Of a DNA stretch of 64,000 nucleotides, positions 13,476-60,790 are shown piece by piece. The translations under genes and the position numbers were made by a program. Numbering within the stretch: position 1 is the first letter of the stretch; each line of letters opens with the position of its first letter. The notes below the pieces were generated by a model, which saw only the letters and a list, made by a program, of their open reading frames with translations, was not told where the DNA came from and did no database searches. This DNA comes from Brachionus manjavacas (lineage: Eukaryota > Rotifera > Eurotatoria > Ploima > Brachionidae), in contig JAHQIY010000023.1 of the NCBI GenBank assembly GCA_019054805.1, positions 434,001 through 498,000 of the forward strand. The letters run 5' to 3'.

Positions 13476-13521
13476 ACAAACATTACGTTGCTGTGAATGT
13501 GAGATTGGTCCATTACACAAT

Positions 13522-17162: not shown

Positions 17163-17277
17163 GGTACAATTCGCTTCGTTAGCCTGGTTTAATTCGCTCG
17201 GTTAGCCTGGTACAATTCGCTTGATTAGCCTGGTTCAATTCGCTTATTTAGCCTGGTTCAATTCGCTTGGTTAGCCT
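17163..17277 (+). repeat. 23-bp minisatellite, five units, copy 2
   Basis: This is the duplicate of 5960-6074 with the same five units in the same order. Confidence 0.9.
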
Positions 17278-18042
17278 GGTCGCGGTACGCAAGATTATTA
17301 ATTGGATTTAACAATTGATATTAGAGGAGAAACAGCTGGAGCACTCCATTTTGAGAAAGCTTGCTTGAGTTTTCAATCCACATACAATTATTCAAATTTT
17401 TATTATTAATTTAAATTTTTATTAGCGCATTTTTCAATTTATTTAAAAAAGTGAGAGAAAGACAGTTGTGAAGTCTCTTCTTATTAATTTTATTAAATAA
17501 AATGAGAAGCACCGCCCATTCCCGTATCCAAATTATTTAACATGGCGAACGGGTTTTGATTATTTTGTCAAATACATCCATTTGAAAGTACTTCATATAC
17601 ATTATTAGCAAATAAAATTTGAAATATTGCAAATTATTAATAGTTTTTTTTCGAATGAAGAGGTATTTAGGCATATTTTTATAAAAAAATAAATCAAAAA
17701 ATTCTAAAATTATGAAAAAATTCAAATTTAATCGATTAATATAGAATTAGAACTTAATAAAAAATAAATCAAAAAGAAATCCCCTAAATTGTTATTGAAA
17801 AATTAAGTTTATTTAAATCGAAATTTATTCCAACGGCTCTAAAAGCAGACCCGAGATGTCATTAGATCAAATAAAAAATTCAAATCAATGAAAATATTCA
17901 GATTTATTAATTAATTTTAAAAAAAATATTTAGATTAAATCAATTTTGTTGTCCTTTCAAAATATTGGACTGTATATTCTGATAATTTTTAATGCTTATA
18001 AAATTGATATTACAACTATGAGATTTAAGTTAGTTACAATTC

Positions 18043-20768: not shown

Positions 20769-20807
20769 AACTTTGGAATACTTTGGCTAAATTAGTTTCC
20801 ATTAATT

Positions 20808-21050
20808 ATGGAGTAAAATTTTGGTAAAAAGAGAATAAATGCGCTTTAAATAGCTTGCCATTTCGCATTACCTTTTCAAGCTTGGTATCATAATATGTAT
20901 CAATATAAATAAAACTATGCAAAACTTATTAATGTTTATGCACATTAATAAGTTTCCCAGCAAGTGCAGCTGTTCCATGTTTCGCGACAAAAAATCAATT
21001 CAAGTCACTAAGTAATTGAACAAAAAGATCCAGCGGGGCCGCAAAGAAGG
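20808..21050 (-). pseudogene. PIF1 helicase fragment with damaged Walker A, copy 2
   Basis: This is the duplicate of 9600-9840 with the same loss of the TGK codons. Confidence 0.55.
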
Positions 21051-21226
21051 ACCAAATGCCGTTCTTCGCTTTTTAATCGTACATAATCTGCCATGATTAT
21101 CTGGCATGCTGTAAAATGACATATTTTCGCTTAAATTCATATATTTTAACAGATAAACCCTCTAGAACTAATAATAAATTGTCGAATTCAAATTCTTCTG
21201 AATTATAATCCATTCTCCAACTATAC

Positions 21227-23441: not shown

Positions 23442-23770
23442 AAAATAGAGTGCATAACGCTAATTTTCTGATTTGTCGATACGAAATTAATCTTTTAAGA
23501 ACATCGGGTTGAACAGCCAAGTCATTAAACCCTTCGGCGGTAACTTTCTTATCTACATAGTTGTATCAAGAAGAACAATTTGAATATTTAAAATTTTTAA
23601 AATTCGAATAGTTGGAGTATTCTGGTTTACTCTTTACTCGTCTCGCACGCTGAGTTTCGTTTAACTTTTTCCATTTAAGAGCATTATTACAGACCAATAC
23701 TTTACTGCAATAACTGCAATAAAAGTTTTTAATAATTTTTAAGATTTTTTTGATCTAATTGAACATTTTT
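22900..23770 (-). pseudogene. Helitron-like N-terminal/middle region, copy 2
   Basis: This is the duplicate of 11690-12560, with the Cys-rich segment near 23700 and the FPHLIPDG motif near 22930 on the minus strand. Confidence 0.5.
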
Positions 23771-24176
23771 CAATATAAATTGTGAATAAATTCATTATTA
23801 TACTTTAAAATGAAATTCCCATCAGGGGCTGTAACAACCGTTGAGTTTTTCGCCTGAAATGAGGATAAAGACTGTTCTTAATGGTTTTATCAACTTCAAA
23901 TTCTGATGAAAATAGTTTTTTTCCTAAACAAACTGTTTAACTCAAAATTTTTTCCAAAACTGTCCCATATTTAGAAAAATAATTATCGATTGCTTAAACT
24001 TCTTATGATAAAGCTTAATAATATAGCAAAAAGTTCTTAATACTAAGCTGACAATTTTTAATAAAATGGTTAATAATTCCTTAAAACCGAATCACTAAGT
24101 ATTCATTTTTGATTCATTTGTAAAACTACAACCTGGACATAACCCGATCTTTAAAAAACGCACTTTATTGAATATT

Positions 24177-24461
24177 TTAAATGATTTGAATCTTTTTATT
24201 TGATCTGGTGAAATCCGTCGGAATTAATATCGACAATTGTAAATCAGAAGCTGTTTTTACTATTGACAAAGCAACAAATGCTTGAACAACTGAGAAAATT
24301 TTGTCATCAATTTCCACATTACATCGTTCTAAAGTTAATACTTGAACTTTATGTATTTTTTGTGTAGTCGCATCCACCACCGGAAAATGAATATTGAATA
24401 AGGTTTGTACCCCAATATTTATTTTTTCTCTTTGTCTAAGTTTGGGAATTGGAATTATCAT
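24177..24461 (-). pseudogene. PIF1 helicase C-terminal fragment, copy 2 (open frame)
   Basis: A minus-strand open frame of about 94 codons reads INIGVQTLFNIHFPVVDATT, then KVQVLTLERC and QAFVALSIVKTASDLQL. The QAFVALS motif is the conserved end of the PIF1/Helitron helicase (usually QAYVALSR; Arg is Ile here, so catalysis would be doubtful). The fragment ends beside a non-LTR insertion at 24472, and its continuation lies beyond that insertion at 25538. The mirrored plus-strand copy is at about 26930-27160. Confidence 0.75.
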
Positions 24462-24471
24462 TCCATTAATA

Positions 24472-25537
24472 AATAAATTCTCGACTGGATAAAAGATTTC
24501 CTGGAGGGCAGGAAGCAGCGTGTGGTTCTAGGTCCGCACGCTTCAAATTGGAAATATGTCACTTTGGGTGTACCTCAAGGTAGTGTGTTAGGTCCAATTC
24601 TCTTCGCAATCTTCATCAATGACCTACCAAGCCACTTGATACACACAAGCAAGCTTTTTGCCGATGATCTAAAAATAATAGCGCAGGTGGAATCCGAGGA
24701 GGCGGTGAATAGTCTTCAAGCTGATTTGGACACAGTGGCTGAATGGTGTTGGACTTGGTTGATGGAAGCAAACGAGTCTAAAATTAAGGTAATGAATATC
24801 GGTAGCAACAAGCATGTAGCAGAAACCAGGTCTTATACGCTAAAAAAGAAGGATGGCTCTCGCATTTTGCTTCAAAACACATCGGAAGAACGCGACCTGG
24901 GCATCATTCTCACGCCTAATTTTAAGTTCAGCTCACAGTCCGCTCATGCCGCATCAAAAGCTAACCAAATTCTAGGAATGTTAAAAAACACATTCGTTTC
25001 TAGGGATGTAGAACTATGGGCCTCACTCTATCGCACCTACATTCGTCCGCATCTGGAGTTTTCAGTGTCGGCTTGGAACCCGTACCTCAGGAAGGATATA
25101 AATACCCTTGAAAAAGTTCAGAGGAGAGTAACGAGAGTCCCCACTGCCTTGAAAGGCATGGAGTACGAGAACAGACTTGAGAGGATGGGTCTTACATCTT
25201 TGGAGACAAGACGACAACGTGGTGACTTAATTCAACTATACAAAGTCAGCAGAGGCAAAGATGACATAACGTGGCACAACGAGCCAAATTGGTCGGCTCC
25301 GAGAGACACGAAGAGAAGTCAACTACGGCGTGAGATCGTGGCATCTTGTCAGCAAAGACACAACTTCTTCATCAATCGAATAGCTAATGAATGGAACGAA
25401 CTGCCAGACGACATAGTCGCAACTGAGACCGTGGACTCCTTTAAAATCAAATACGACCATTATCAATTAAGACGACCGCTTTGAGGGGCATCCCTGCGAG
25501 TTATCTCGCCACGCGGTCTTACTACTACTACTACTAC
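24472..25537 (+). mobile_element. 5'-truncated non-LTR retrotransposon with 5-bp target duplication
   Basis: This is an insertion of about 1066 bp into the Helitron relic. The unbroken sequence is present in inverse orientation at 26925-26945, so the target can be read as ...CCATTAATAGTTTAAA.... The 5 bases TAATA are present on both sides (24467-24471 and 25538-25542). The 5' end starts mid-RT, typical of incomplete target-primed reverse transcription. The 3' end is a (TAC)n microsatellite tail after a short GC-rich 3' UTR (TTATCTCGCCACGCGG). A short microsatellite tail fits the CR1/L2 part of the non-LTR tree, but the clade assignment is tentative. Confidence 0.85.
24477..25484 (+). CDS. Reverse transcriptase, C-terminal two-thirds, open frame
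   Basis: An open frame of 335 codons ends at TGA (25482-25484). In order it holds WIKDFLEGRKQ, GVPQGSVLGP (RT motif B), the catalytic FADD box, a thumb region (RDLGIILTPNFKFS, HAASKANQILGML) and the C-terminal region typical of CR1/L2/Jockey pol (SAWNPYLRKDINTLEKVQRR, GLTSLETRR, DLIQLYKV, FFINRIANEWNELPDDIV). There is no start Met because the element is truncated in the RT palm, so it cannot make active enzyme. Base composition is much less AT-rich than the surroundings and the frame is unbroken, so this is the youngest coding sequence in the left half of the window. Confidence 0.9.
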   Translation: MLDWIKDFLEGRKQRVVLGPHASNWKYVTLGVPQGSVLGPILFAIFINDLPSHLIHTSKLFADDLKIIAQVESEEAVNSLQADLDTVAEWCWTWLMEANESKIKVMNIGSNKHVAETRSYTLKKKDGSRILLQNTSEERDLGIILTPNFKFSSQSAHAASKANQILGMLKNTFVSRDVELWASLYRTYIRPHLEFSVSAWNPYLRKDINTLEKVQRRVTRVPTALKGMEYENRLERMGLTSLETRRQRGDLIQLYKVSRGKDDITWHNEPNWSAPRDTKRSQLRREIVASCQQRHNFFINRIANEWNELPDDIVATETVDSFKIKYDHYQLRRPL

Positions 25538-34300: not shown

Positions 34301-36825
34301 GAGAGAAGTGAAATTGTTTAACTATATTTTATTCAAAAGCTTTATTTTAATCTTAAGCTAACTTAATTCATTTAACGCATTTTAAAAAAATAAGACTTTC
34401 GTTTAGTATTTGGTTAAACAATTTCAAAACTTGTATGAGTGAAGAGAAATTGTCTCACTATATTTTATTCAAATTTCTAATTTTTATCTTGACATTAATT
34501 TATTAACTTAATGCATTTTCAAAAATAAAGCTTTTCAGTAGGATATGGTAAAACAATTCTACACTTGTATGAGAGAAGTGAAATTGTTTAGGTATATTAT
34601 TTTTGAAAGCTTTATTTTAATCGTAAGCTTAATTTATTAACTTAACTCATTTTCAAAAATTTAGCTTTTCGGTAGGATATGGTAAAACAATTCTACAACT
34701 TGTATGAGAGAAGTGAAATTGTTTTACTATATTTTATTCGAAAGCTTTATTTTAATCTTAAGCTAACTTAATTCATTTAACGCATTTTAAAAAAATAAGA
34801 CTTTCGTTTAGTATTTGGTTAAACAATTTCAAAACTTGTATGAGTGAAGAGAAATTGTCTCACTATATTTTATTCAAATTTCTAATTTTTATCTTGACCT
34901 TAATTTATTAACTTAACTCATTTTTAAAAGTAAAAATTTTCAGTAGGATATGGTTTTACAATTCGATACTTTGAATGATAGAAGTGATATTGCATAACTT
35001 TATGTTATTCGAAAGCTTAATTAATTTACTAAACGATTTATAAAAACAAGGCTTCCGAGTAGGATATGGTTAAACAATTTCATAACTCGTATGAGAGAAG
35101 AGAAATTGTCTCACTATATTTTATTCAAATTTCTAATTTTTATCTTGACATTAATTTATTAACTTAATGCATTTTCAAAAATAAAGCTTTTTAGTAGTAT
35201 ATGGTTAAACAATTCCATACTTTGTATGAGAGAATAGAAATTTTTTAAACTATTTTTTATTCGAAGCCTAATTTAAATCTTGAGCTTAATTAATTTACTT
35301 AACGATTTTTAAAAACAAGCTTTCGAGTAGTATATGGTTAAACAATTCCATTCTTAGTATGATAGAGGTGAAATTGTATAACTTTATGTTATTCGAAAGC
35401 TTAATTAATTTACTAAACGATTTATAAAAACAAGGCTTCCGAGTAGGATATGGTTAAACAATTTGACAACTTGTAGGAGAGAAATGAAATTGTTTAACTA
35501 TATTTTATTCAAAAGCCTAATTTTAATCTTATCCTTAACTTATTGACTTAACGATTTATAAAAACAAGGCTTACGAGTAGGAAATGGTTAAACAATTTCA
35601 TAACTTGTATGAGAGAAGAGAAATTGTCTCACTACATTTTATTCAAATTTCTAATTTTTTTTTTACCTAAATTTATTAACTTAACTCATTTTTAAAAGTA
35701 AAACTTTTCAGTAGTATATGGTTAAACAATTCCATACTTAGTATGATAGAGGTGAAATTGTATAACTTTATGTTATTCGAAAGCTTAATTAATTTACTAA
35801 ACGATTTATAAAAACAAGGCTTACGAGTAGGAAATGGTTAAACAATTTCATAACTTGTATGAGAGAAGAGAAATTGTCTCACTACATTTTATTCGAAAGC
35901 TTTATTTTAATCTTAAGCTAACTTAATTCATTTAACGCATTTTAAAAAATAAGACTTTCGTTTAGTATTTGGTTAAACAATTTCAAAACTTGTATGAGTG
36001 AAGAGAAATTGTCTCACTATATTTTATTCAAATTCTCTAATTTTTATCTTGACATTAATTTATTAACTTAATGCATTTTCAAAAAATAAAGCTTTTCAGT
36101 AGGATATGGTAAAACAATTCTACACTTGTATGAGAGAAGTGAAATTGTTTAACTTTTTTTTTTCAAGAGCCTGATTTTCATCTTAAGCCTAATTTATTAA
36201 CTTGACGATTTTTAAATACAAGGCTTGCGAGTAGTACATGGTTAAACAATTCCACAACTTGAATGAATGAAGTGAAATTGTTTTACTATATATTTTTTTT
36301 ATTCGAAAGCCTAATCTAAATCATAATTCTAATTTTATTACTTAACGCATTATCAAAAATCAAGCCTTTCAGCCGGATATGGTAAAACAATTCCCAACTT
36401 TTAATGAGAAGTGAAATTGTTTAACTATTTTCTTTTCGAAAGCCTAATTTTGATCTTAAGCTCAATTAATTAACTTAACGATTTATAAAAACAAGAATTC
36501 GAGTAGGAAATAGTTAAACATTTCTACAATTTGTTTAAGAGAAGTGAAATTGTTTAACTAATTTTTATTCGAAAAACTGAATTTTAATTCTAAAGCTAAA
36601 TTTATTAACTTAACGGATTTATAAAAACAAGGCTTTCAGTTGGATATATAAACAATTTCATTACCTGGATACGGGACATAAAATTGTTTAACTAAATTTT
36701 ATTCAAATTTCTTAATTTTATTCTAATCCTTTAATTTATTTAACTAAATGCATTTTTCAAAAAAGCTTTCAGGCAGGATATGGTAAAACAATTCCTCAAC
36801 TCATATGAGAAAAGTGATATTGTTT
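31390..36825 (+). repeat. 134-bp satellite array, forward block 1
   Basis: The tandem monomer of about 134 bp follows the pattern AAACAAGGCTT, CGAGTAGGATATGG, TTAAACAATTTCA, a short loop (ACTTGTATGAGAGAAG), TGAAATTGTTTAA, CTATATTTTATTC, AAAAGCCT, then a T-rich tail. The two inner 13-mers are reverse complements and so are AAGGCTT and AAGCCT, so each monomer can fold into a hairpin of about 80 bp. Monomers are diverged, strongly so at the left edge next to the gypsy relic. There is no coding capacity. Confidence 0.95.
35641..35654 (+). other. Unoccupied target site (paralogue of the transposon insertion site)
   Basis: The sequence ATTCAAATTTCTAA lies in a satellite segment. Its left 200-plus bases equal those before 47740 and its right ~175 bases equal those after 58950. 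It shows the target before insertion as AAATTT, with the cut between A 35647 and T 35648. Confidence 0.9.
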
Positions 36826-45100: not shown

Positions 45101-47739
45101 CATAACTTGTAGGAGAGAAATGAAATTGTTTAACTATATTTTATTCAAAAGCCTAATTTTAATCTTATCCTTAACTTATTGACTTAACGATTTATAAAAA
45201 CAAGGCTAACGAGTAGGAAATGGTTAAACAATTTCATAACTTGTATGAGAGAAGTGAAATTGTTTAACTATATTTTATTCGAAAGCCTTATTTTTATCTT
45301 GACCTTAATTTATTAACTTAATGCATTTTAAAAAATAAAGCTTTTTAGTAGTATATGGTTAAAAATTCCATACTTTGTATGAGAGAATAGAAATTTTTTA
45401 AACTATTTTTTATTCGAAGCCTAATTTTAAATCTTGAGCTTAATTAATTTACTTAAGGATTTTTAAAAACAAGGCTTTCGAGTAGTATATGGTTAAACAA
45501 TTCCATTCTTAGTATGATAGAGGTGAAATTGTATAACTTTATGTTATTCGAAAGCTTAATTAATTTAATAAACGATTTATAAAAACAAGGCTTCCGAGTA
45601 GGATATGGTTAAACAATTGTACAACTTGTAGGAGAGAAATGAAATTGTTTAACTATATTTTATTCAAAAGCCTAATTTTAATCTTATCCTTAACTTATTG
45701 ACTTAACGATTTATAAAAACAAGGCTAACGAGTAGGAAATGGTTAAACAATTTCATAACTTGTATGAGAGAAGTGAAATTGTTTAACTATATTTTATTCG
45801 AAAGCCTTATTTTTATCTTGACCTTAATTTATTAACTTAATGCATTTTAAAAAATAAAGCTTTTTAGTAGTATATGGTTAAAAATTCCATACTTTGTATG
45901 AGAGAATAGAAATTTTTTAAACTATTTTTTATTCGAAGCCTAATTTAAATCTTGAGCTTAATTAATTTACTTAACGATTTTTAAAAACAAGGCTATCAAG
46001 TAAGATATGGTTTAACAATTTCATAACTTGTTTGAGAGAAATTTGTAATTTTTTTTTTACCTAAATTTATTAACTTAACTCATTTTTAAAAGTAAAACTA
46101 TTCAGTAGTATATGGTTAAACAATTCCATACTTAGTATGATAGAGGTGAAATTGGATAACTTTATGTAATTCGAAAGCTTAATTAATTTACTAAACGATT
46201 TATAAAAACAAGGCTTCCGAGTAGGATATGGTTAAACAATTGTACAACTTGTAGGAGAGAAATGAAATTGTTTAGGTATATTTTATTTGAAAGCTTTGTT
46301 TTAATCGTAAGCTTAATTAATTAACTTAACGCTTTTTAAAAAAATAAGACTTTCGTTTAGTATTTGGTTAAACAATTTCAAAACTTGTATGAGTGAAGAG
46401 AAATTGTCTCACTATATTTTATTCAAAAGACTCATTTTTATCTTGACCTCAAATTATCAACTTGACGATTTTTAAATACAAGGCTTTCGGGTATTACATG
46501 GTTAAACAATTCCACAACTTGTATGAGAGAAGTGAAATTGTTTAGGTATATTTTATTTGAAAGCTTTATTTTAATCGTAAGCAAAATATATTTACTTAAC
46601 GATTAATAAAAACAAGGCTTTCAAGGAGGATATGGTTAAACAATTTCATAACTTGTATGAGAGAAGAGAAATTGTCTCATCATATTTTTTTCAAATTTCT
46701 AATTTTTATCTTGACCCAAATTTATTAACTTAACTCATTTTCAAAAATTTAGCTTTTCAGTAGGATATGGTTAAACAATTTCACACTTTGTATGAGATAA
46801 GTGAAATTGTTTTATAACTATATTTTATTCCAAAGCTCAATTTTTATTTTGACCTTAATTTATTAACTTGACGATTTTTAAATACAAAGCACTCGAGTAG
46901 TACATGGTTAAACAATTCCACAACTTGTATGAGAGAAGTGAAATTGTTTAGGTATATTATTTTTGAAAGCTTTATTTTAATCGTAAGCTTAATTTATTAA
47001 CTTAACTCATTTTCAAAAATTTAGCTTTTCGGTAGGATATGGTAAAACAATTCTACAACTTGTATGAGAGAAGTGAAATTGTTTTACTATATTTTATTCG
47101 AAAGCTTTATTTTAATCTTAAGCTAACTTAATTCATTTAACGCATTTTAAAAAAATAAGACTTTCGTTTAGTATTTGGTTAAACAATTTCAAAACTTGTA
47201 TGAGTGAAGAGAAATTGTCTCACTATATTTTATTCAAATTTCTAATTTTTATCTTGACCTTAATTTATTAACTTAACTCATTTTTAAAAGTAAAAATTTT
47301 CAGTAGGATATGGTTTTACAATTCGATACTTTGAATGATAGAAGTGATATTGCATAACTTTATGTTATTCGAAAGCTTAATTAATTTACTAAACGATTTA
47401 TAAAAACAAGGCTTTCGAGTAGTATATGGTTAAACAATTCCATTCTTAGTATGATAGAGGTGAAATTGTATAACTTTATGTTATTCGAAAGCTTAATTAA
47501 TTTACTAAACGATTTATAAAAACAAGGCTTCCGAGTAGGATATGGTTAAACAATTTGACAACTTGTAGGAGAGAAATGAAATTGTTTAACTATATTTTAT
47601 TCAAAAGCCTAATTTTAATCTTATCCTTAACTTATTGACTTAACGATTTATAAAAACAAGGCTTACGAGTAGGAAATGGTTAAACAATTTCATAACTTGT
47701 ATGAGAGAAGAGAAATTGTCTCACTACATTTTATTCAAA
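42111..47739 (+). repeat. 134-bp satellite array, forward block 2 with higher-order repeat
   Basis: Forward monomers resume. Between about 42115 and 46000 groups of monomers repeat as a higher-order unit of about 1.19 kb. The marker CCATTCTTAGTATGATAGAGG recurs near 43124, 44313 and 45503. The block ends at AAA 47737-47739, where the transposon begins. Confidence 0.95.
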
Positions 47740-48140
47740 GAACAATACACTGTTTCCATTGAAATTTTGCCCTTTTATATTTTATTTAAAAAAAGAGGGT
47801 TCAACTTAATTTTTATATCAAAATAAAGGTTTTTTACTCATCTTTCGGCAAAATTATCTAATTTTTTAGATTTCCAAAAAAATGTCAATTTTGGCAAGAT
47901 GAAAATCTACATTTTTTCATAATAAACTTTACAATTTTACTTGCAAGCAGTCGTTGTTTCTTTTTTCTTGGTGAAAAAGAATAATTCTCTATTAAGGATT
48001 TATTTTGCTTAGAATTGAATTAAATAACAATTTAAAAATAATAAAAAATATCTTTTGATAAAAGTTAGATAATTTTTAAATAAAAATTCAGATTAAAGAT
48101 GCAGAAAACTTAATGAACCTTATTAAATACTTAAAATCTT
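47740..48140 (+). repeat. Left terminal inverted repeat (401 bp)
   Basis: It runs from GAACAATACACTG to ACTTAAAATCTT and is the reverse complement of 58549-58950 with only a few differences (for example TTAGATAATTT against TTATGTAATTT). There is no coding frame in it. Confidence 0.9.
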
Positions 48141-48456
48141 CAAGAATACAACGAAAATTTTAGCGTTTGAGAGTTATTTTTCTAAAGATTTAAGTTGTAA
48201 TTTTTATTTCATTTAACAAAAAATAATTTTAGTTACAAAAAGTTTTTAAATAAGATTACATAAATATCTATTTAAAAAAGAGGATAATTTTTGAGTCATC
48301 TTCTTCGTATTTTTCAATAATCAAATTTTTTCCAATTGAAAATAGAGCATTACATATTAAATTGGACATAGCATATTTTTTAAAAATTGCACATAAATTA
48401 ATTTATATATAAATTCATTTTAAAAATTTTAGACAAAGTTTAACTGAAGCTAAAAA

Positions 48457-49085
48457 ATGAATTTAAAAATCAATGATAAAGTTTCATTTAAAAGATCAAA
48501 TGGTATAAAATTAATATCATGCATTATAATTAAATATTGTTTAAAATTTTTTTTTAAGGATTAATTCAAATAGGATTTATTAAGAGTATAAATCAAGAAA
48601 AATTAGAGCTGGTATGGAATAGTAATCAGAGGACTTTTGCAAAAAATCTTCGAATTGAGGACGTCAAGCTTGTTAAAAATAAATATTTTTCCCTTAAAAC
48701 ATTCTTAATATCATTGATGGTTGTCATTTTTAGTTTGTTTGGAATTTTGATTGGGGAAGGTGTTTATGTTAACTATGTTGAACAAGAAATAGCATATAAT
48801 AAGTGCTTGCCGTATAAAGATTTAAGTTTTTTTGTTTTTTTTTTCACAGACTTTTGTTCAAAGAGTCCTTCTTTTCTAAGAGCAATCCTTGTTACTTTTT
48901 CTGATATAGCTTCTAGTATAGGGCATTGTGGTGGTCTCTACTTAAATTTTTTTTTTAAAGGATTATTTACAAATGTTGGAATTTTTGGATTTTTTCAAAT
49001 TGTTATTTGTGTGATCACCTTTGTTATAATTTTTTTAACTTTAATTTTTTTTATATGTTTATATGCTAGAAAAAAATTAGTGTAA
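48457..49085 (+). CDS. Small membrane protein with SH3/Tudor-like N-terminus (two exons)
   Basis: Exon 1 is 48457-48502 from an ATG and exon 2 is 48559-49085. The 56-nt intron has GTATAA and TTTTTAAG ends, and the frame continues exactly across it, giving 190 residues. Residues 1-55 (KINDKVSFKRSNG, GFIKSINQEKLELVW, then LRIEDVKLV) look like a small beta-barrel of the type at the N-terminus of KIF2-family kinesins (KRSDGRIH...VEW). The rest is hydrophobic: a membrane segment near residues 65-90 (FLISLMVVIFSLFGILIGEG), a Cys-bearing loop, and a long segment at 155-185 (FFQIVICVITFVIIFLTLIF) ending in RKKLV. This is an intact frame in an otherwise frameshifted element. Its role is unknown. It is unlike any standard transposition protein, and the similarity is by eye only. 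Confidence 0.65.
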
Positions 49086-49149
49086 TATTATTGTTTTTTC
49101 TTTAAAAAATAAAATTTTTTTAAAATTTAAATAAGAAAAATATTATTTT

Positions 49150-50110
49150 ATGGACCTTGTTAATGCAGAGAAGTCCGCTATGGGTCTTACTTTCGTCCTG
49201 GGTCTCGAGACCAGCAAAAAAGTTCCGCAATATCGTTCCTATTTGATCGTTCCGCAATATCGGGATGATTCGACTATTCTGGCCTTTTAAAGAGAGACCA
49301 GCACGAGTCCTTATCCTTATCGCTGGACTAATTTTGTGCTAATAGCTCTTAATACGAGCGCAACCAGCTGCCGACCGAATCATGAGACCGTTTTGTAGAT
49401 TGGCAAAGAGCGCGTGAGTGATTGGAAATTCCTAATGGAAAGATATCTGTGGGTAGAGCGAAGTAGGCGTCCACCTTTACTTTTTCCCTAGATATAGAGC
49501 TGTGAGCTGTGAGACCCTTGGCCTGAATCTGACAATCATCGAACTGGGCGAAAATTCTTTCGACCTGGTTGCAAAAGAAGCTGGTGGTAGTAGGTGGAGG
49601 AGGCTGTTGGAGATCCCTCGCCTATTTGATCATTTTCCTTATCATTTTGCTCTTGAAGCTCGTCTTCCGAGCTTTCTGGATTGTCCATGTACCTCCACGA
49701 TTCCATAAGGAATTATGGAACATTACTAATTAATTCCATAATTAATTAATAATGTTCGTGTCTTTGTCCCAGAAGTATTTACTAATTACCGGGCGACCGA
49801 ACTTCCACTTATGAATTAATGAATAATTAGGGTGATTAGTGGTGGGTGAAAGGATATTGTTGACTAAATCGATCCCCGGTGTGAGCTTTGCTAGTTCCTT
49901 AAAACCGCATCCTGCTTTTTGAGCGAGTGCGAGACTTAGCTGTAGCTGTCTTGTTGCCTCCTGTTTTAGGAAGCCTTCCTGAGGAGCTAGCAGGCTTTGT
50001 GGCTACCACTACTACGTTGTCCCTCTGTGGGATGTAGCTTGCCTTATCTAATGAGAATATCATGATCTTCAAAAAATTTAGGGTCCTATCCCAGCTTCCT
50101 TTAGAGACTA
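49150..50110 (-). other. GC-richer nested insert with broken minus-strand coding scraps
   Basis: Base composition jumps abruptly (GGTCTCGAGACC, GACCGAATCATGAGACCG, CTTCCTGAGGAGCTAGC) and drops again after about 50110, so this is foreign to the transposon. On the minus strand a 54-codon frame (50063-49899) starts MIFSLDKASYIPQRDN and ends with a basic TAKSRTRSKSRMRF tail. A second (49688-49536) starts MDNPESSEDELQEQNDKEND. After a one-base shift the frame continues as VERIFAQFDDCQIQAKGL to a stop at 49349. Acidic and basic low-complexity segments of this kind occur in retroelement gag, but I cannot identify the source. No target duplication or terminal repeat is evident. Confidence 0.5.
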
Positions 50111-51150
50111 CTTAACTACCAAAACAAAAAACTTCAATTGTATTAGAATAAAGTCTTTTAAAGTTTATAATAGTTTTTAACCACAATTATAAAAAACGAT
50201 TAAAAAATTAAATATTAATTATTAAATTTTTCTAATCAATAAGTGGCTCAAGGATACGAGGTCAGCTTTTTTAATGACAATTGGTGCTATTTGTAGAGTA
50301 CCACAAGTAAAATTGTGATTAATTTGCAGGAGCATTAGGACTTAAAACAGTCAGCATAAAAAAATGAATAAGTCTTAGATTTGCAGGTTAAATAAAATTA
50401 TGAAAGTTTTTAAGTTTTTTAAAGTTATTAAATTCAAATGATTATTGATAATTCATTGCATATGTAAATGAGTAAAAAGAGATAATATTTTTTATTAAGA
50501 ATTCGAATCCAAATCATGTCACAAAAATATAACATTAAAAAAACCTATTTATTCTTCAGCTCAGATTTGGGCTCTTTTTGACATTTGATTTGATTTTTTG
50601 GGGTGTTGTGAATTTCAAAAAACAAATAGAAAAAAAAATTCATCATGTTTTGATAAATCAAAATTAGAGTTAATAAAAAAATATTAGAAAAAATAAGGCC
50701 ACAAACTGCAACAAAGTATGTTACACTTTATCGCCTTAAATAAAATTTTTTTATTCTATTTTCTGTTTTTTAAATTCACAATACCATTAATGGTAAATAA
50801 TTTATTTGTTTATTTGTAATTTTATATTTTTGTTAAATAAATGTGAATATTAAATATCTTATAAAAATTCCAATAAAATGATGATTCGTTCGAATTTATC
50901 CATCTATTTTCCTGAATCAAAAACCAAGTTCAGATGCAAAAATTAAGATTTTATCATTCAAGTGAAATTTAAAATTAAACATTGTTTTTTGAAATAAAAG
51001 TGATATTCTAAAAAATGATATTTTTCCTTTTCTCTAAATTTTTTTATCGCTATTAATAATCTAATAAAATATACACTATGTTTAAAAAGTTAATTATTGT
51101 ATTTAGCAAGTAAAAATTTATTTAAAAAAAAAATTTACATAAAATTAAAT
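50111..51150. other. AT-rich spacer in the transposon
   Basis: No motif, exon pair or repeat could be recognised. The sequence is A/T runs with scattered stops in all frames. Confidence 0.5.
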
Positions 51151-51154
51151 TGAT

Positions 51155-51717
51155 TTATTTTTTTTTTAATTCTTTTCTTCTTTTTCTGTAAAACCATTGA
51201 CTGATTTGTCTTCTTGTGATCTCGAGATTCTCTGCCAATTCAGATATTTGTTCTTTTTGTGGATATGCACACATTTTCAAAAAATTCATTCAGTTTTATT
51301 TCTTCGTTTAATGATATGCGTTTAGACGAATTAAATTTTTTATTTCTTGAATTTGAAATCCATCTTGATATTTGACGGACCGACAAATTTGTTTTTAGCT
51401 AATTGAATCTTTTCATTTCGAGAAAATCTTTTTGGTATATGAGTGCATCGTAAAGAATCCTGCGATTTTTAAAATTTATTCGTTTTTTTGAATTTTTTCT
51501 TAATAGGCTGATTATCATTTTTCTTGGACTGTTTTTTATTGATAAATGTATTGAAAACTTTCGATAAACTTCGAAAAGAGACTTTCGAAGAATTAAAAAA
51601 CATTTTAAAAGCATTGGTAGAAAATCTCCAGCTTAAGTTAGCTGAAGCTCTAAGTGAAGTGAGTAAAATGTTTGAATAACGAATTAATGCCATTTTAAAA
51701 ATAATCTTAAACATCAA
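51155..51717 (-). pseudogene. Homeodomain-like gene with two recognition helices (frames broken)
   Basis: Reading the minus strand: a basic stretch (NKKQSKKN, PIKKKFKK) that could be a nuclear signal, then NFKNRRILYDAL, KDFLEMKRFN, a TAG codon, and LKTNLSVRQISRWISNSRNK. That last piece has the spacing of homeodomain helices 2-3 (R-Q-I-x-x-W-I-x-N-x-R). A linker (SLNEEIKLNEFFENV) leads, after a one-base shift in a T run, to YPQKEQISELAENLEI and TRRQISQWFYRKRRKELKKK, a second and more canonical helix 3 (Q-I-x-x-W-F-x-x-K-R-R), ending at TAA 51155-51157. Homeodomains bind DNA in the nucleus. In PIF/Harbinger a Myb-like partner does this for the transposase, and this protein could do the same here. 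The N-terminal part above 51480 is uncertain because its antisense also reads as a plausible coiled coil. Confidence 0.65.
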
Positions 51718-51814
51718 GATAAAAAGATTAAAATAAAATATTGGAATAATAATTATATCAAAAAAAATCTAAAATTAAAATACTAACGACAAGAAAAAAT
51801 TTTTAAGGTAAAAG

Positions 51815-52680
51815 ATATAGAATTTGGAAGAAAAAACCATAATTTTTATCTTTTCTAAAGATATGTTTTCTGCCTTAAAATAAGTTTTTTAGTATAAAAA
51901 TCTTTATTGAGGTCAATATCGATTTTTTATGTTAAAAAATAGAATTTGGAAGAAAAAACTATAATTTTTATCTTTATTAAAGATATGTTTTCTGCCTTAA
52001 AATAAGTTTTTTAGTATAAAAATCTTTATTGAGGTCAATATCGATTTTTTATGTTAAAAAAATAGAATTTGGAAGAAAAAACTATAATTTTTATCTTTTT
52101 TAAAGATATGTTTTCTGCCTTAAAATAAGTTTTTTTAGTATAAAAATCTTTATTGAGGTCAATATCGATTTTTTATGTTAAAAAAATAGAATTTGGAAGA
52201 AAAAACTATAATTTTTATCTTTATTAAAGATATGTTTTCTGCCTTAAAATAAGTTTTTAGTATAAAAATCTTTATTGAGGTCAATATCGATTTTTTATGT
52301 TAAAAAAATAGAATTTGGAAGAAAAAACTATAATTTTTATCTTTTTTAAAGATATGTTTTCTGCCTTAAAATAAGTTTTTTTAGTATAAAAATCTTTATT
52401 GAGGTCAATATCGATTTTTTATGTTAAAAAATAGAATTTGGAAGAAAAAAACTATATTTTTTATCTTTTTTAAAGATATGTTTTCTGCCTTAAAATTTGT
52501 TTTTTTAGTATAAAAATCTTTATTGAGGTCAATATCGATTTTTTATGTTAAAAAATAGAATTTGGAAGAAAAAACTATAATTTTTATCTTTTTTAAAGAT
52601 ATGTTTTCTGCCTTAAAATAAGTTTTTTTAGTATAAAAATCTTTATTGAGGTCAATATCGATTTTTTATGTTAAAAAGTA
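51815..52680 (+). repeat. 122-bp minisatellite, seven units
   Basis: The unit starts near AGAATTTGGAAGAAAAAACT, passes ATCTTTNTTAAAGAT (a small palindrome) and GTTTTCTGCCTTAAAATAAG, and ends ATTGAGGTCAATATCGATTT. Unit starts lie near 51820, 51942, 52065, 52190, 52311, 52432 and 52557. Units are about 97% alike, differing mainly in A/T run length, so amplification was recent. It sits between the minus-strand homeodomain gene and the plus-strand genes, so it could be a shared regulatory or transposase-binding region. Confidence 0.9.
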
Positions 52681-52911
52681 AGAATTTTCGCTGAAACTTG
52701 ATTCAAAAAAGATATTCTTAAAAATATAATATTTTTTTATTTCGATAAAAAAGTTGTAGTAAAATAATTTTTTCAAACAAAATCTAAAAGGAGATGCAAT
52801 TATATATTTTTTTCTTTTTTTATTTTGTTTAAATTTCAAAAAAAGTAAAACTTTATCATCTGCCCATATAATTTCTAATAAAAAAAATGTAAACACTGAA
52901 ACATTTTCTAG

Positions 52912-53580
52912 TCATTTTCCTCAAACACTTTTCATGGTGTAAGCAACGCTGTGGCATGTGATGATAAACTTCGTTGCCTAAAAATTATTGAATTTTCAAT
53001 ATCTCCAAATCATTCATTGAATTGTTTCGACAAATATCTACCAATTATTTTTGGCGATTCTCAGATTGGTTTTTATCCACGGGATGGAGGCATTTTATTT
53101 TACCATCAAAAAAATTCAGAAACATGTCAAAAAATTAAAAGGTAATTTTTGATTGCAGTAAATTTTAATTTTCTTACTCTAATTTCTTTTGTTAGGTTTA
53201 AAATAAATGAAGAACAAGTTCTAATTATAATTAGGGAAACAATAGCAATTAGCGACATAAAAAATGTAGAAGAGACAATTGAATGGCTCTTATTTAAAAA
53301 TAATGAGTTCGCTTGTTGGCTTATGTTCTCATTTGGATTATACGATGAAGAAAAAAACAGAATTTTTTATTTTGTTGGATTAAAAGTATTTTTTTATTTG
53401 AAGATTTGAATTTAAAATTTGTTATCTATTTAGGATCTAGTGTTTATCGGAGCTTGTCTTCTTACAGTGAAATCTATTTATACAAAACTGTGCATAATTT
53501 ACATTTGTATTAAAGTTTTAACAGAAGAATCAAGAGTAAAATGTCAGATAAAAAAGTTAATGAAACCAAAAAATCAAAGT
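52912..53580 (+). CDS. Unknown multi-exon gene (partial model)
   Basis: At least three exons read in frame: 52912-53141, 53196-53385 and 53434-about 53579. The introns at 53142-53195 (54 nt) and 53386-53433 (48 nt) have GTAA/TTAG and GTAT/TTAG ends, and an upstream exon is implied by the acceptor TTTTCTAG before 52912. Recognisable text is FHGVSNAVACDDKLRCL, NCFDKYLPIIFGDSQIGFYP, EEQVLIIIRETIAISDI, NNEFACWLMFSFGLYDEE and a hydrophobic LVFIGACLLTV segment with a basic end. No family is recognised. It lies 150 bp upstream of the transposase on the same strand and could be its upstream part or a separate accessory gene. Confidence 0.5.
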
Positions 53581-53728
53581 AGATTTTTCAATTTTTTTTG
53601 TATTTTTTTCAAATAAAAGTTTAAACTATATTTATTATATCACTCTAATCGATAATAACACAAAATATTATTTTTATGAAATTTTTAAGAACTCAATCTT
53701 CATTTTTTAGATAAAAAAATAAATTAAA

Positions 53729-56700
53729 ATGTCCACGAAAAAGATAGAAACAGCTATAAATTCGCATAATTGCTGTTTTATTTGTAGACGGAAGCGTTCT
53801 GATAGGATTAAACTGCGAACAATTAATAAAAATTCAATTATTCATGCATTCAAAATGAAAAAGAATAATTATTGATGAAAATGCAAGATGCTGCAGAAAC
53901 CATCTTGATAATAATGGTTGTATTAAAGAGGAACTTTATGGTCAAATTCGTACAAAAAAAAAAAAATTATAAGAATCAATTAATAAAAATGTTTGATATG
54001 TTTGAAGTCGGTGAAAAAAGTGTGTTTGAAAAATTTAAAGATATTTCTTCTGTTCAAGACTCACATTGTATTGAAATTACAGGTTGGACAAAAAAACAAT
54101 TTTTAGACTTTTCTAAATTCATCACTAGCATAAAAAATAGTAAAAATCGTTCGAAAGAACAGCTGATTGCTCTTTATCGATACTGGTTAAGAACAGGAAC
54201 AAACCAATCAGTACTTGCTAAAATTTTTAAAAGGGATGTTCTCAACAAGCCATTAGTAAATACTTGTCTCAAATACGAAAGGCAATAAACGAAGATTTTG
54301 TTCCATTTTTTCTTGGAGCTGATAGAAAAAGAGAATTTTTTTGAAACACAACAATGAAATGGTAACAGAACTTCTATCAATTAAGAATGAAGAACTTGTT
54401 ATTGTTTGTGATGGTACCTATACTCGCATTGAAAAAAGTCAGAATAATAACTTCCAGTATAAAAGTTGGAGTGTTCAAAAATCAACATCATTACTTAAGC
54501 CTTTTATTATATGCTGTAGTGATGGATATATTATTGACTGTTATGGATCATTTTCTGCAAATATGAACGATGCTTGTATATTTGAATATATATTGAAGAC
54601 AGACTTAGCTCTAAAAGAAAAGATTCTTCTTCCTGGAAAAACAATTATCTTTCTCGATAGAGGTTTGTAAAAATTTATAATTTGCACTAAAGAATTTTAT
54701 TATGTGAATTGTTAAAAATAAAAGATTTATTTAAAAGGATTTAGAGATGTCGTATTACAACTTAGAGAAAAAATACGATTTTGATGTAAAAATTCCAACT
54801 TGTCAGCAGTTTTTAAATAATGATTTGGATGAGTCTAATTTAAAATCTAAACAGCTTTCTACCAAACAGGCTAATGAAACACGAATGGTAACAAAGGTAA
54901 ATTAAATTATGTTTTTTTTATTAAAATTTTATTTGATTAATTAAGTGTCGATTCATAGTTGAAAAAAAAATCGGCGAAATTAAAAAATTTAGGGCTTTAG
55001 AAAATGTTCGAAATACAGCTATTGGTCATATTCAAATTGACTATCGAATAGCATCAGCAATGATTAATTTCAGCCATATTAGTTGTTCCCCTGATGGAAA
55101 TCATGGAAAAAAAATTGCGCGAAGAATGATTAGAAAATCAAAAATAACCAAGAATGAATTAGAGTTTTTAATAGGAAAACATTTGGAAACAAAATTGATA
55201 GCATCTATTTCGATTTCAAGTATTGTTGATTTTCCAATTCTAAGACCAAAACAAATGATGAGAAAGTTATTTCTTGGATCATATCAGTTAAAGCAAGCTA
55301 GAGCCTACGCTGATGACCTTTTATTTAATAAAACAGCTTACATTGTTAGCTCAAGATTGATGAAGAATATGTCAAATAGGGTTTTAACTGATGAATATGA
55401 AAATTCAAAAATCCTTGCATTTGAAATAATTTCACGTCATAGAAGATCTAAAAAAAATCTAAAAGATATTGGGCAAACCAGCTATGTTAAACAGTTTAAA
55501 AATACATACAAAGTTTTTATCAAATATATACCTGGATTAAATCATTCGAAGTCAATTCAAGGTAAATTCAAAATTTTACACTATTTACTAGGTAATCTTT
55601 TGATTTTAATTTTTATTTAAGCTCATATATGCACATGTTTGTCAGGTCGTCGAATAGTCGGATGCTGTAGCCATGTCGCAACTGTGATTTATTATTTAAG
55701 CTATTTAAAATATAGAACACCTGGTATCATATCAAAAGGAAGACATTTAAACGAAATTCCTATCGATATACAGAATCAACAGTTGCCTAACAAACCGAAA
55801 AATATTAAAGGAAAGAGAAGTAGAAAAGAAAGTTCAAGTGATTCGGAATATACTACTAGTTGTTCAGATTCAAGTGATATTGAAATTGAAATCCTTCAAA
55901 AGGAATTGAATCAAACTCATGAAATATCATCAAACGATTTAACAAGTATTGAATCATTCAAAAATCACATACCAAAGTGGGGAGCTTTCATTGAATACAA
56001 AGGGAAAAAAACGTTTTTGTTTCAAAAACTTGCTCAATTGATTATATTCTTTTAGCATTCTGGTATCTTTATAAAAAAATTCTTCTTATTTTCAAAATAT
56101 AATAAGTAACAAGTTGACTATAGTTATAAAAGACATTATAGATGAAGTGGATAAAAAGAATTTCGATAAAGCTAAAGAATTATGGATTAAACAAATAATG
56201 AGCTATGATACAAAATTAAATTTTTCTGAAAATTTTATTGAAATATCACTTGATAATAATGAAGAAGATAATTTTTCAAAGAATTTAAAAGAATTTCAAA
56301 AGTATGTATTTATTCAACAAAGTTGTTCAAGATGTGAAAAAAATGAGAGAAATATTCCCAAAGAATCTGATGTCATACTTTTTAAAAAATCTAATTCAAA
56401 AATTAAGTTATCAGCTGAAAATGAAGAAAGATGCAAGTCATGCAAGTTGACTTTTGAATTCAACGTTAAATTTTTTAATCAGCCTACATTTTTGTTTATA
56501 AAATCAGCAGAGAAGAACATTTTTATCCATGAATTACCAGATGTTATAACATGTGATAATAGAAACTATAATTTTCTTTGTGCAACTTTAAACAAACCAG
56601 GCCATACTGTTTCAATTTTTAAGCTAAAAAATGATTTTTATGTGGTTGATGACATATATAAAACTGTCAAAAAATTATCTAAATATGGAAAAAATCTGAA

Positions 56701-56776
56701 AAAGAAGAGAGATCATTTTTATTTTCAAAAAGCAACCATCAGTTATTCATTTTATTATTTAATCAATAGTTTTTAA
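53729..56776 (+). CDS. DDE transposase fused to a ubiquitin-protease-like domain (frameshifted)
   Basis: The ATG is at 53729-53731. In order: a Cys/His N-terminus (NCCFICRRKR, then ARCCRNHLD); an all-helical region (SHCIEITGWTKKQFLDF, then AISKYLSQIRKAIN); a DDE_Tnp_4-type catalytic core with Asp in CDGTYT (54410), Asp in FLDRG (54656) and Glu in IVEKKIGEIK (54961); RNTAIGHIQIDYRIA; and a Cys/His motif VGCCSHVATVIYYL. A further domain has TCSIDYILLAFWYL (Cys box), paired CSRC and CKSC, and PGHTVSIFKLKNDFYVVDD (His box), resembling a C19-type ubiquitin protease. The introns 54663-54737, 54897-54945 and 55562-55645 splice in frame. Frameshifts at about 53870, 54240, 54337, 54770, 56015 and 56082 all lie in or next to short homopolymers. 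Frames join only when these are allowed, so the copy is either inactive or contains sequencing errors. Confidence 0.8.
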
Positions 56777-57044
56777 TTTTTTTTAAAATTTTTTTGAATA
56801 AACAAATTATTAATTCATTTTCTATTTACTAACATTTAAACGTTATAACAAAAAAAAATTTAGACGTATGTTGATTTTTTAAATATATGTTGATAAGTAA
56901 AAAAATTAAATATTAATTACAACTAATATATTTACAAAATTTTAATGGATCGCAGCAAATTTTTTACAATTAAATTATACAAAAAGCAACAAAGACAATT
57001 AACCAGAACAAGTTAGAAGGAAATATTAATACAAAAACAATGGA

Positions 57045-57554
57045 TCAGAAACATGAAACAGGATGAGAAACTAATTCTCTTGTTCTGGTTGAATCAGTAT
57101 CATTTAGTTTTTCTAATTTAAAATGTTCCCTTAAAAATTGAGAATTTTCATATTGGTTTTCATAAATACAAACATCCTTTTAATGAAATTGTGTAAAAAA
57201 ATGCCATTTTTTTATCTTTGTAAATTACTTCGAAGCTATCGTCATTTGTCTGATTATACACTTCTTCAGAAACGATTGCAGATTGAAGCTTAAAAAAAAA
57301 TTTTGCTTATTCTTTTATAAGATATTTTTGAAAAAACCTCGTTAAGATCTCTCAAAAATGCTTTGGCAAATTTTGGTTGTGCGCACAGACAAGGCTGTCG
57401 ATCAATTATAGGAACATTTTGGTCCTGGCCCTTTAAAAAATATTTAAAAGGAAAATGCAAGACAATTTATTACCAAAATCTGATTCCGATTATCAGCTGA
57501 AAAACGTGAGACACCATTTTGACCAATACTTAAGTTCAAATCTGAATTTGGGTT
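57045..57554 (-). CDS. Unknown minus-strand gene (two exons visible, frameshifted)
   Basis: The exon 57554-57474 is exactly 27 codons (NPNSDLNLSIGQNG to NRNQIL). It is bounded by an acceptor (AAATTAAG) and a donor (GTAATA). A 43-nt intron ending TTTTTAAAG follows, and the next exon from 57430 reads GQDQNVPIIDRQPCLCAQPK and then FAKAFLRDLNEVFSKISYKR. After homopolymer shifts near 57296 and 57184 it continues as QSAIVSEEVYNQTNDDSFEV and YENQYENSQFLREHFKLEK to TGA at 57045. The consistent splice signals and hydrophilic composition support a real gene. A minus-strand frame at 57844-57587 may be its first exon. No family is recognised. It converges on the transposase gene. Confidence 0.5.
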
Positions 57555-57849
57555 CTTAATTTAAAAATAAAAAAATTGCTCAGCTTTTAGAAAAAGAAAT
57601 TACATTTTTTTTTGAAAAATAATTTTTTCAGTAATGATACAGATAAGCAAATTAAAAATACAGTCAAAAGAACTATAAAAAATCTGGTCATTGATATCAT
57701 ATTTATATCAATTCTGATATCTATTGAATTTTTAGAATTGTTCAAAAAGTTTGAAACTGTCAAATTCGTTGAAATCGAAGACTTTTTAGCTGCAATTTTT
57801 GTACTTGACCAAAATTTCTCCAAAAACGCATTGAACGAACTCACTTTAT

Positions 57850-58548
57850 AAAAGAAATATTAATGAAAAAAAACAAGTTGAAACCGGATGGTAAAGAAAA
57901 GCTTAAAGAAACTTTTTGAGTAAAAAAAATAGATTAGAAAAGAAGATCAAAATACAAAGAAATCGGTTCAAACTTCTTTTAAAACAGATTTCATAAGGCC
58001 ATTAAAATTTTGAGCTAGGTTAAAAAGAGACTGACTGAAATTTCAAAATCAAAAAATTCATTTTTTAAAATGACTAATCATTTTTTGAAAATTTTGTTTC
58101 AATAAACAATTAAAAAAATTTTTCTTGAGATGTATGCTATAATTTTTTATTAATTTTAAATCATTAATATGGAAAAAATAAATTGAAAATAATATTTCAA
58201 AATGAATATTGACAAATGAAACAAAATAAAACTTAACAAAAAGTTTAAATATTTTAGATTATATTAAATTTTTAATTGCTTTTGCTTTCCTCTGCGTTAC
58301 TGGTTTAAATTCATTTTTTTTCATTTTTATTTCTTTTTAAAAAGTAGTCGATAATTGATGAAAAAATTTATGATCAAAAATAAGTAAATTATTGATAATC
58401 CAAAATACTTTAAATTATTTACCTTTTTATTTTGGTAAAGCCTTTAAAGGGAAATAATCATTTAGATAAAAAATTTTTCAAATCATGAATATCATCCCAA
58501 ATAAAATAAATCATTGTTTTTTAAAAATAAATTAAATAAATATAAAAT
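57850..58548. other. AT-rich subterminal region of the transposon
   Basis: This lies between the last gene-like unit and the right terminal repeat. Only A/T runs and short frames are present, and no motif is recognised. Confidence 0.5.
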
Positions 58549-58950
58549 AAGATTTTAAGTATTTAATAAGGTTCATTAAGTTTTCTGCATCTTTAATCTG
58601 AATTTTTATTTAAAAATTACATAACTTTTATCAAAAGATATTTTTTATTATTTTTAAATTGTTATTTAATTCAATTCTAAGCAAAATAAATCCTTAATAG
58701 AGAATTATTCTTTTTCACCAAGAAAAAAGAAACAACGACTGCTTGCAAGTAAAATTGTAAAGTTTATTATGAAAAAATGTAGATTTTCATCTTGCCAAAA
58801 TTGACATTTTTTTGGAAATCTAAAAAAATTAGATAATTTTGCCGAAAGATGAGTAAAAAACCTTTATTTTGATATAAAAATTAAGTTGAACCCTCTTTTT
58901 TTAAATAAAATATAAAAGGGCAAAATTTCAATGGAAACAGTGTATTGTTC
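58549..58950 (-). repeat. Right terminal inverted repeat (402 bp)
   Basis: This is the reverse complement of the left terminal repeat, ending in TGTATTGTTC at 58950 immediately before satellite TTTCTAATTT. The near-perfect identity of the two ends suggests recent activity. Confidence 0.9.
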
Positions 58951-60790
58951 TTTCTAATTTTTTTTTTACCTAAATTTATTAACTTAACTCATTTTTAAAA
59001 GTAAAACTTTTCAGTAGTATATGGTTAAACAATTCCATACTTAGTATGATAGAGGTGAAATTGTATAACTTTATGTTATTCGAAAGCTTAATTAATTTAC
59101 TAAACGATTTATAAAAACAAGGCTTCCGAGTTGGATATGGTTAAACAATTGTACAACTTGTAGGAGAGAAATGAAATTGTTTAGGTTTATTTTATTTGAA
59201 AGCTTTGTTTTAATCGTAAGCTTAATTAATTAACTTAACGCATTTTAAAAAAATAAGACTTTCGTTTAGTATTTGGTCAAACAATTCTACAACTTGTATG
59301 AGTGAAGAGAAATTGTCTCACTATATTTTATTCAAAAGACTAATTTTTATCTTGACCTCAAATTATCAACTTGACGATTTTTAAATACAAAGCACTCGAG
59401 TAGTACATGGTTAAACAATTCCACAACTTGTATGAGAGAAGTGAAATTGTTTAGGTATATTATATTTGAAAGCTTTATTTTAATCGTAAGCTTAATTAAT
59501 TAACTTAACGCATTTTAAAAAAATAAGACTTTCGTTTAGTATTTGGTCAAACAATTCTACAACTTGTATGAGTGAAGAGAAATTGTCTCACTATATTTTA
59601 TTCAAAAGACTAATTTTTATCTTGACCTCAAATTATCAACTTGACGATTTTTAAATACAAAGCACTCGAGTAGTACATGGTTAAACAATTCCACAACTTG
59701 TATGAGAGAAGTGAAATTGTTTAGGTATATTATATTTGAAAGCTTTATTTTAATCGTAAGCTTAATTAATTAACTTAACGATTTATAAAAATCAAGCCTT
59801 TCAACAAGATATGGTCAAACAATTCTACAACTTGTATGAGAGAAGTGAAATTGTTTTACTATATTTTATTCGAAAGCTTTATTTTAATCTTAAGCTAACT
59901 TAATTCATTTAACGTATTTTAAAAAAATAAGACTTTCGTTTAGTATTTGGTTAAACAATTTCAAAACTTGTATGAGTGAAGAGAAATTGTCTCACTATAT
60001 TTTATTCAAATTTCTAATTTTTATCTTGACATTAATTTATTAACTTAATGCATTTTCAAAAATAAAGCTTTTCAGTAGGATATGGTAAAACAATTCTACA
60101 CTTGTATGAGAGAAGTGAAATTGTTTAACTTTTTTTTTTCAAGAGCCTGATTTTCATCTTAAGCCTAATTTATTAACTTGACGATTTTTAAATACAAGGC
60201 TTGCGAGTAGTACATGGTTAAACAATTCCACAACTTGTATGAGAGAAGTGAAATTGTTTTTACTATATATTTTTTTTTTATTCGAAAGCCTAATCTAAAT
60301 CATAATTCTAATTTTATTACTTAACGCATTATCAAAAATCAAGCCTTTCAGCCGGATATGGTAAAACAATTCCCAACTTTTAATGAGAAGTGAAATTGTT
60401 TAACTATTTTCTTTTCGAAAGCCTAATTTTGATCTTAAGCTCAATTAATTAACTTAACGATTTATAAAAACAAGAATTCGAGTAGGAAATAGTTAAACAT
60501 TTCTACAATTTGTTTAAGAGAAGTGAAATTGTTTAACTAAATTTTATTCGAAAACTGAATTTTAATTCAAAGCTAAATTTATTAACTTAACGATTTATAA
60601 AAACAAGGCTTTCGAGTTGGATATGGTTAAACAATTTCATTACCTGGACGGGACATGTGAAATTGTTTAACTAAATTTTATTCAAATTTCTTAATTTTAT
60701 CTAATCCTTAATTTATTAACTAAATGCATTTTCAAAAAAAAGCTTTCAGCAGGATATGGTAAAACAATTCCCAACTCATATGAGAAAAGT
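58951..60790 (+). repeat. 134-bp satellite array, forward block 3
   Basis: The satellite resumes at TTTCTAATTTT right after the transposon. The first ~175 bp match 35648-35822, and 59860-60790 matches 35880-36825, showing that the two regions are duplicates of one array segment. Monomer structure is as in the first forward block. Confidence 0.95.

Follow-up and report, generated by a model that had tools for sequence, protein, structure and literature searches.

What kind of mobile element occupies positions 47740-58950 of the 64,000-nucleotide stretch of Brachionus manjavacas DNA analysed here (C23:434001-498000, hereafter the window), and do the genes found inside it belong to it? A first-pass annotation, made from the letters of the window alone, had proposed a giant Spy-like transposon carrying a set of cargo genes, and at 11,211 bp the element is indeed giant. 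The best explanation is, with a probability of roughly 85%, a young Spy-type cut-and-paste DNA transposon which has been enlarged into a conserved four-gene element. The evidence comes from the insertion site of this element and its copies, from its transposase, and from three further genes (g1, HD and g2) that occur in diverged relatives within the same genome (Table 1).

Ends, target site and copies in the genome

The two ends of the element, which had been proposed as inverted repeats of about 401 bp, measure 401 and 402 bp and share 99.25% identity over 402 alignment columns; the repeat search of the window returned inverted arms of 279 nt at 99% and 146 nt at 96%. The element lies in an array of a ~134-bp satellite, and when its 70-bp flanks were joined by script without the element the product matched window positions 35578-35717 in 140/140 bases. 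This empty site reads TTCAAA/TTTCTA (the slash marks the insertion point) with nothing duplicated, and for this reason AAA and TTT are assigned to the target and not to the element.

The 114.2-Mb assembly (61 contigs) was then searched with the left end; 40 matches among 89 candidates were scored, making the copy number a lower bound. By pairing left-end matches, at least 15 complete copies of ~10.7-11.2 kb were identified, and besides that of the window nine of the remaining 14 were retrieved whole and five by their ends only. At 30/30 ends of the 15 copies the element was preceded by AAA or followed by TTT. Two copies on C26 have both flanks in common, leaving 14 independent sites, and at 14/14 of these the insertion is between AAA and TTT without a target site duplication. 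AAA and TTT each account for ~7.5% of positions in the AT-rich window, and therefore the probability of 14 such sites occurring by chance is negligible. The same AAA/TTT flanks were found at the ends of relatives on C10 (both ends), C50 (left), C13 (right) and C4:34.6k (left). The insertion at AAA/TTT without duplication, as put forward in the first-pass annotation, is thus confirmed by the empty site and by the flank table of the copies, a check which that annotation had itself suggested and which revealed no duplication or other target. The transposase would cut at the ends of the element and join it into the middle of AAATTT, presumably by flush or zero-offset cuts.

The copies are young, with the window copy sharing 99.79-99.93% identity outside gaps with the nine others that were aligned. 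The differences among them are mostly in homopolymer lengths, and therefore many of the broken frames, including those of the window copy, may well stem from assembly error.

Other traces of the family were also noted. Lone left ends at C16:42.4k and C7:6115.6k have a 30-bp flank identical to that of the adjoining complete copy, which suggests local duplications taking in part of the element. A cluster of broken and diverged family copies, with ends of 91-94% identity, is found at C24:688-775k; its eight diverged left-end matches are outside the count of 15.

The transposase and the genes accompanying it

The transposase was found to comprise a Cys/His N-terminal motif and a helix-turn-helix-like region (both recognised by eye), a DDE_Tnp_4 core, a SWIM-type motif and a C-terminal domain of USP fold. 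The core matches PF13359 (DDE_Tnp_4) with an E value of 5.7e-07 for a single window exon and 6.9e-15 for the joined reading (residues 228-385), which identifies a PHIS-type DDE transposase and agrees with the family named in the annotation. Matches to PF13359 number 46 in this genome and were found in 1/14 control genomes; seven of the loci in this genome were retrieved, of which those on C1 and C9 were classified further. The best-scoring named relatives of the transposase are from Brachionus plicatilis and B. calyciflorus.

The C-terminal domain shows the USP (peptidase C19) fold across its length. The SWIM motif and USP domain share one open exon of 385 amino acids in the copies at C2:1849k and C16:51k, and a relative on C1 has DDE, SWIM and USP in a single intact frame of 1073 amino acids, which rules out a separate ubiquitin-protease cargo gene; the unit annotated as such is the C-terminal domain of the transposase. 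No inverted ends and no cargo were found in the 14-kb stretch with this lone C1 frame, a candidate domesticated gene. Among 12 Brachionus-named proteins, several of them partial, the Cys box of USP was recognised in eight and the His/Asp box in six. The C-terminal region matched four proteins of the protein database including the query, all Brachionus-named; the SWIM-USP exon gave no match to PDB by sequence, and the four matches obtained with a profile of the aligned transposases were weak (E 0.089 or worse). It is tentatively suggested from the resemblance in fold and sequence that this domain is an active isopeptidase, in which case it would free the transposase, or silencing proteins of the host, of ubiquitin or SUMO.

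Of the extra gene-like units in the annotation, numbering at least five, the membrane protein (g1), the homeodomain protein (HD) and a Cys-rich protein (g2) are real genes, giving with the transposase a four-gene element, while the ubiquitin-protease unit is part of the transposase and a GC-rich unit is probably a repeat fragment. Both g1 and a Brachionus-named protein, P0006, have matches below the curated cut-off to PF22923 (kinesin KIF2A N-terminal; E 0.0017 and 8.8e-06, respectively). The g2 product has, by eye, a hydrophobic signal-like start, a Cys-rich region and a hydrophobic C-terminal segment, and from such features g1 and g2 may both be membrane proteins. HD matches PF05920 (E 2.2e-12) and PF00046 (E 6.3e-11), with two stretches for each family, and no Myb/SANT family was among its matches in the Pfam scan. 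It is free of stops in seven copies, at 99-100% identity. Going by sequence resemblance, HD could be a DNA-binding partner or regulator coded by the element, comparable to the presumed role of Myb/SANT proteins in PIF/Harbinger, although we regard this as rather doubtful. In that case the 124-bp array separating HD from g2, whose unit number differs between copies, would be a divergent promoter or a binding region.

Two candidates were set aside. The GC-rich stretch is present in 17 copies at ~100%, in the C24 cluster at 91% and in partial form elsewhere (e.g., C11 at 74% and C19 at 67%). Given these partial copies and its split reading frames, it is unlikely to be functional cargo on the minus strand and was probably carried along as a piece of some dispersed repeat. 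For the frames at 57.0-57.9 kb, nothing in C13, C10, C4, C4:34k, C41 or C50 reached E<0.05 and C1 gave a single weak match (E 0.009); these frames were rejected as a gene.

Table 1. Features of the element and its relatives; positions refer to the window unless a contig is named.
Feature	Position	Strand	Content	Basis
Whole element	47740-58950		11,211 bp	
Left terminal inverted repeat	47740..48140	+	starts GAACAATACAC	alignment to right end; 15 complete copies
Right terminal inverted repeat	58549..58950	-	terminates in GTGTATTGTTC	end alignment; end reads of copies
Target half AAA	47737..47739		host satellite	exact empty site 35578-35717
Target half TTT	58951..58953		host satellite	exact empty site 35578-35717
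Gene g1	48457..49085	+	2 exons; KIF2A-like short N-terminal domain (weak), then two hydrophobic segments	segments by eye
GC-rich stretch	49150..50115	-	probable passenger fragment of dispersed repeat; excluded from cargo	
Gene HD	51158..51631	-	double-homeodomain protein	
Tandem array	51800..52687		124-bp unit, ~7 units; separates divergent HD and g2	TRF
Gene g2	52788..53616	+	3 exons; adjoins transposase in C13, C10 and C4:1058k	intron signals
Transposase gene	53729..56776	+	3 short introns; frame interrupted in window copy	
Most of USP-like domain	56075..56776	+	separated by frameshift from rest of transposase in window copy	
C13/C50 relative	C13:3160937-3213355 and C50:1-39200		g1, HD, g2, transposase	
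C10 relative	C10:2277596-2293801		16.2 kb; HD, g2, transposase; g1 not found	
C4 relative	C4:1049-1061k		g1, HD, g2, transposase	
Second C4 relative	C4:34.6-38k		g1, HD, g2; searched to 42 kb without finding a transposase	
C41 relative			g2 and short transposase match; HD not found in stretch taken; g1 side outside coverage	
C1 relative	C1:123.4-126.7k		transposase only	

In the remainder of the window, the ~134-bp satellite array extends over 31372-64000, switching orientation at ~36.8-42.1 kb and past 60.8 kb. A tandem duplication of 11.2 kb unrelated to the element is found at 2102-24681 (2102-13475 and 13306-24681, 99.6% identity). Neither an Rfam scan of 47000-59500 (E up to 1) nor a tRNA scan gave a match.

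Conservation in relatives and rival explanations

The surroundings of six diverged relatives in this one genome (C13/C50, C10, two on C4, C41 and C1) were compared with the element. Among them g2 was found in 5/6, HD in 4/6 (C50, C10, C4:1053k, C4:36k) and g1 in 3/6 (C50, C4:1049k, C4:35k), and wherever the genes were found they follow one order: g1(+), HD(-), spacer, g2(+), transposase(+). The amino acid identity of g1, HD and g2 to these relatives is 34-56%, so the cargo, which the annotation had proposed to look for in other copies, is kept both in the complete copies and in diverged relatives. Outside this genome, five DDE proteins from Brachionus match g2 over part of their length: P0011 (43% over 140 amino acids, E 4e-33), P0010, P0006, P0016 and P0013. 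Further family matches occur in the C24 cluster, on C33 and C9, and at C2:9.03-9.10M and C4:1071k; g2-like matches at 33% and one HD-like match at 37% among C2:9032681, 9078726, 9100461 and C33:178450 possibly represent other branches of the family. The C10 element also carries a fragment weakly resembling Hobbit/FMP27 (PF10344, E 0.00058, under the cut-off) and a frame of 478 amino acids without Pfam match, possibly captured from host genes or representing nested insertions.

Codon divergence decreased from third to first to second positions in 11/11 protein-guided comparisons of at least 25 codons (eight cargo, three transposase), a type of alignment that leans to constraint by construction. 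The count was redone on nucleotide alignments, where third positions were the most diverged in 7/7 cases (six cargo, one transposase exon) while in some of them first and second positions hardly differed; non-coding sequence, the end repeats from two families, stayed flat at 0.43/0.47/0.46 by position. Stops were present in some relatives (11 in the C4:1058k transposase, four in its g2, one in its HD, and one in the C13 g2) and therefore not all of these are alive.

Besides the lean of the protein-guided alignments, a number of observations weigh against the best explanation as a whole. The C1 relative has its DDE-SWIM-USP frame without detected cargo, so that cargo is not needed in every lineage. 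In the C10 element g1 was not found and HD is at just 31-39%, and HD was not found in the stretch retrieved around the C41 g2. Outside the genome g1 has a match in P0006 alone (31% over 74 amino acids, E 0.005) and HD a single homolog, P0046. The B. plicatilis protein P0001 has Ser in place of the Cys of the USP box. An unbroken set of transposase exons was seen in no retrieved copy, that of the window being interrupted as well; the element is nonetheless probably autonomous.

A first rival explanation is a one-gene Spy which recently took in unrelated and functionless host genes. The copies are so young, at the identities given above, that the presence of cargo in every one of them proves nothing, the GC-rich stretch resembles such a passenger, and the C10 element holds its weakly Hobbit-like fragment. 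Against this, g1, HD and g2 retain their order in relatives at 34-56% amino acid identity with third positions the most changed, and DDE proteins from B. plicatilis and B. calyciflorus match g2 in part. For these three genes the explanation is largely refuted, and overall we consider it highly improbable. A shade less probable again is an endogenous virus-like or Polinton-like element in which g1 and g2 are envelope-type proteins; several genes, long inverted ends and two proteins with hydrophobic segments would suit such an origin, whereas a DDE_Tnp_4 transposase and the lack of a duplication do not, and no polymerase, integrase or capsid was among the Pfam matches of the scanned frames. A search of a phage collection with an insect protein gave no match and is uninformative.

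The least probable of the explanations weighed is that the element belongs to ISL2EU or PIF/Harbinger and its duplication was overlooked. The DDE_Tnp_4 family is common to all, and ISL2EU is reported to be sister to Spy (PMC11304231), yet an AT or TWA duplication was present at 0/14 sites, the empty site is an exact AAATTT, and THAP, YqaJ and Myb/SANT were absent from the Pfam matches of the scanned readings. A Spy-type element with four genes of its own remains the preferred explanation.

The C13 and C50 parts of the apparently split relative contain a further feature, a satellite array of ~122 bp. On C13 it starts beside g2 and runs for 46 kb to the contig end (4/4 further samples); on C50 it runs from base 1 to HD at 35 kb (3/3 samples), beyond which come g1 and, at 39200, a left end. 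This left end is an inverted copy of the right end on C13 (98.96% over 383 bp), and the two have AAA and TTT as their flanks. Most simply this is a single element, at least ~91 kb long, which the assembler broke; there may instead be two separate elements. Single ~122-bp units were found in the HD-g2 spacer at C4:36953 and C4:1053520 and beside g2 at C41:48144 (four of six candidates scored), and the array appears to have arisen by amplification of part of this divergent intergenic region, putatively a promoter. The 124-bp unit of the window and the 122-bp unit of C13 show no convincing similarity (71-73% over 56-69 bp at best).

Significance and comparison with known systems

Spy transposons are described as small, carrying one gene, and are under development as gene-transfer tools, and satellite arrays lie behind genome-size variation in Brachionus. 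The interest of the present element is in its conserved gene set, its transposase-USP fusion and the satellite array of its relative. The retention of three extra genes and a fusion of transposase with an isopeptidase-like domain over long divergence suggests a durable multi-gene programme in a non-viral cut-and-paste element. The fused enzyme offers a concrete test case for transposons countering ubiquitin- or SUMO-based silencing, and two relatives carry one unit between HD and g2 where a third carries a long array, which makes the birth of satellite DNA inside a transposon traceable. At its most far-reaching, and as a whole improbable, the family would be a self-contained class of giant animal transposons, with a transposase-borne deSUMOylase or deubiquitinase evading silencing, a homeodomain regulator that acts on a divergent promoter unit within the element, and a pair of membrane proteins aiding passage between cells or germ lines; the promoter unit would amplify to an array of at least 80 kb, and rotifer genomes would thereby acquire satellite DNA and change in size.

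Some MULE, KDZ and Helitron transposons code for Ulp1 or OTU proteases. The present element resembles these in coding for a putative ubiquitin- or SUMO-directed protease, and differs in that a USP-type fold is fused to the transposase. Large satellite-rich elements of B. asplanchnoidis, from the same genus, likewise have long satellite arrays, in which the rotiSat1/2 repeats have monomer lengths of 154 and 143 bp and raised GC; these monomers differ from those found here and the available text makes no mention of transposon ends (PMC8447722). Any link between the two is speculation.

Among transposons with a related DDE core, those of PIF/Harbinger average ~4.1 kb for candidate autonomous elements and, like the present element, code for a DNA-binding protein in addition to the transposase; theirs is of Myb/SANT type and they produce a TWA duplication (PMC4482050), whereas homeodomains are found here and TWA is duplicated neither at the 14 sites nor at the empty site. 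ISL2EU also has an AT-rich target, A/AT/T, with a 2-bp AT duplication and THAP and YqaJ domains (PMC4482050); its AT duplication is absent here at the same sites. In a DDE tree of 45 rows, with P0011, P0013, P0014, P0016, P0045 and P0046 left out, the window transposase joined the Brachionus proteins first and Diabrotica at a greater distance, and the butterfly Euphydryas and the rotifer Rotaria lay across the midpoint root. Its insect proteins are unverified as Spy and it holds no verified Spy or ISL2EU reference, so it shows nearness to other SWIM-DDE proteins only and cannot decide clade membership.

The closest correspondence is to Spy itself, for which two reports give no duplications, an AAATTT target, a length of 1165-5910 bp, one open frame and ends of 5-691 bp (PMC11304231, PMC4482050), in Arthropoda, Cnidaria and Mollusca (PMC11304231). 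The annotation knew of no described Spy with such a cargo, and no report of a multi-gene Spy element was found in the open-licence PMC literature. The element shares with Spy the insertion at AAA/TTT without target duplication, the DDE transposase and long inverted ends, which are possible in Spy; it differs in its host, Rotifera being outside the phyla listed in PMC11304231, and in its C-terminal USP-fold domain. It also lies outside the reported Spy range of one frame and 1.2-5.9 kb, which is a range and not a criterion, and at 11.2 kb with four conserved genes it is therefore classed as a Spy-type variant and not as an ordinary Spy.

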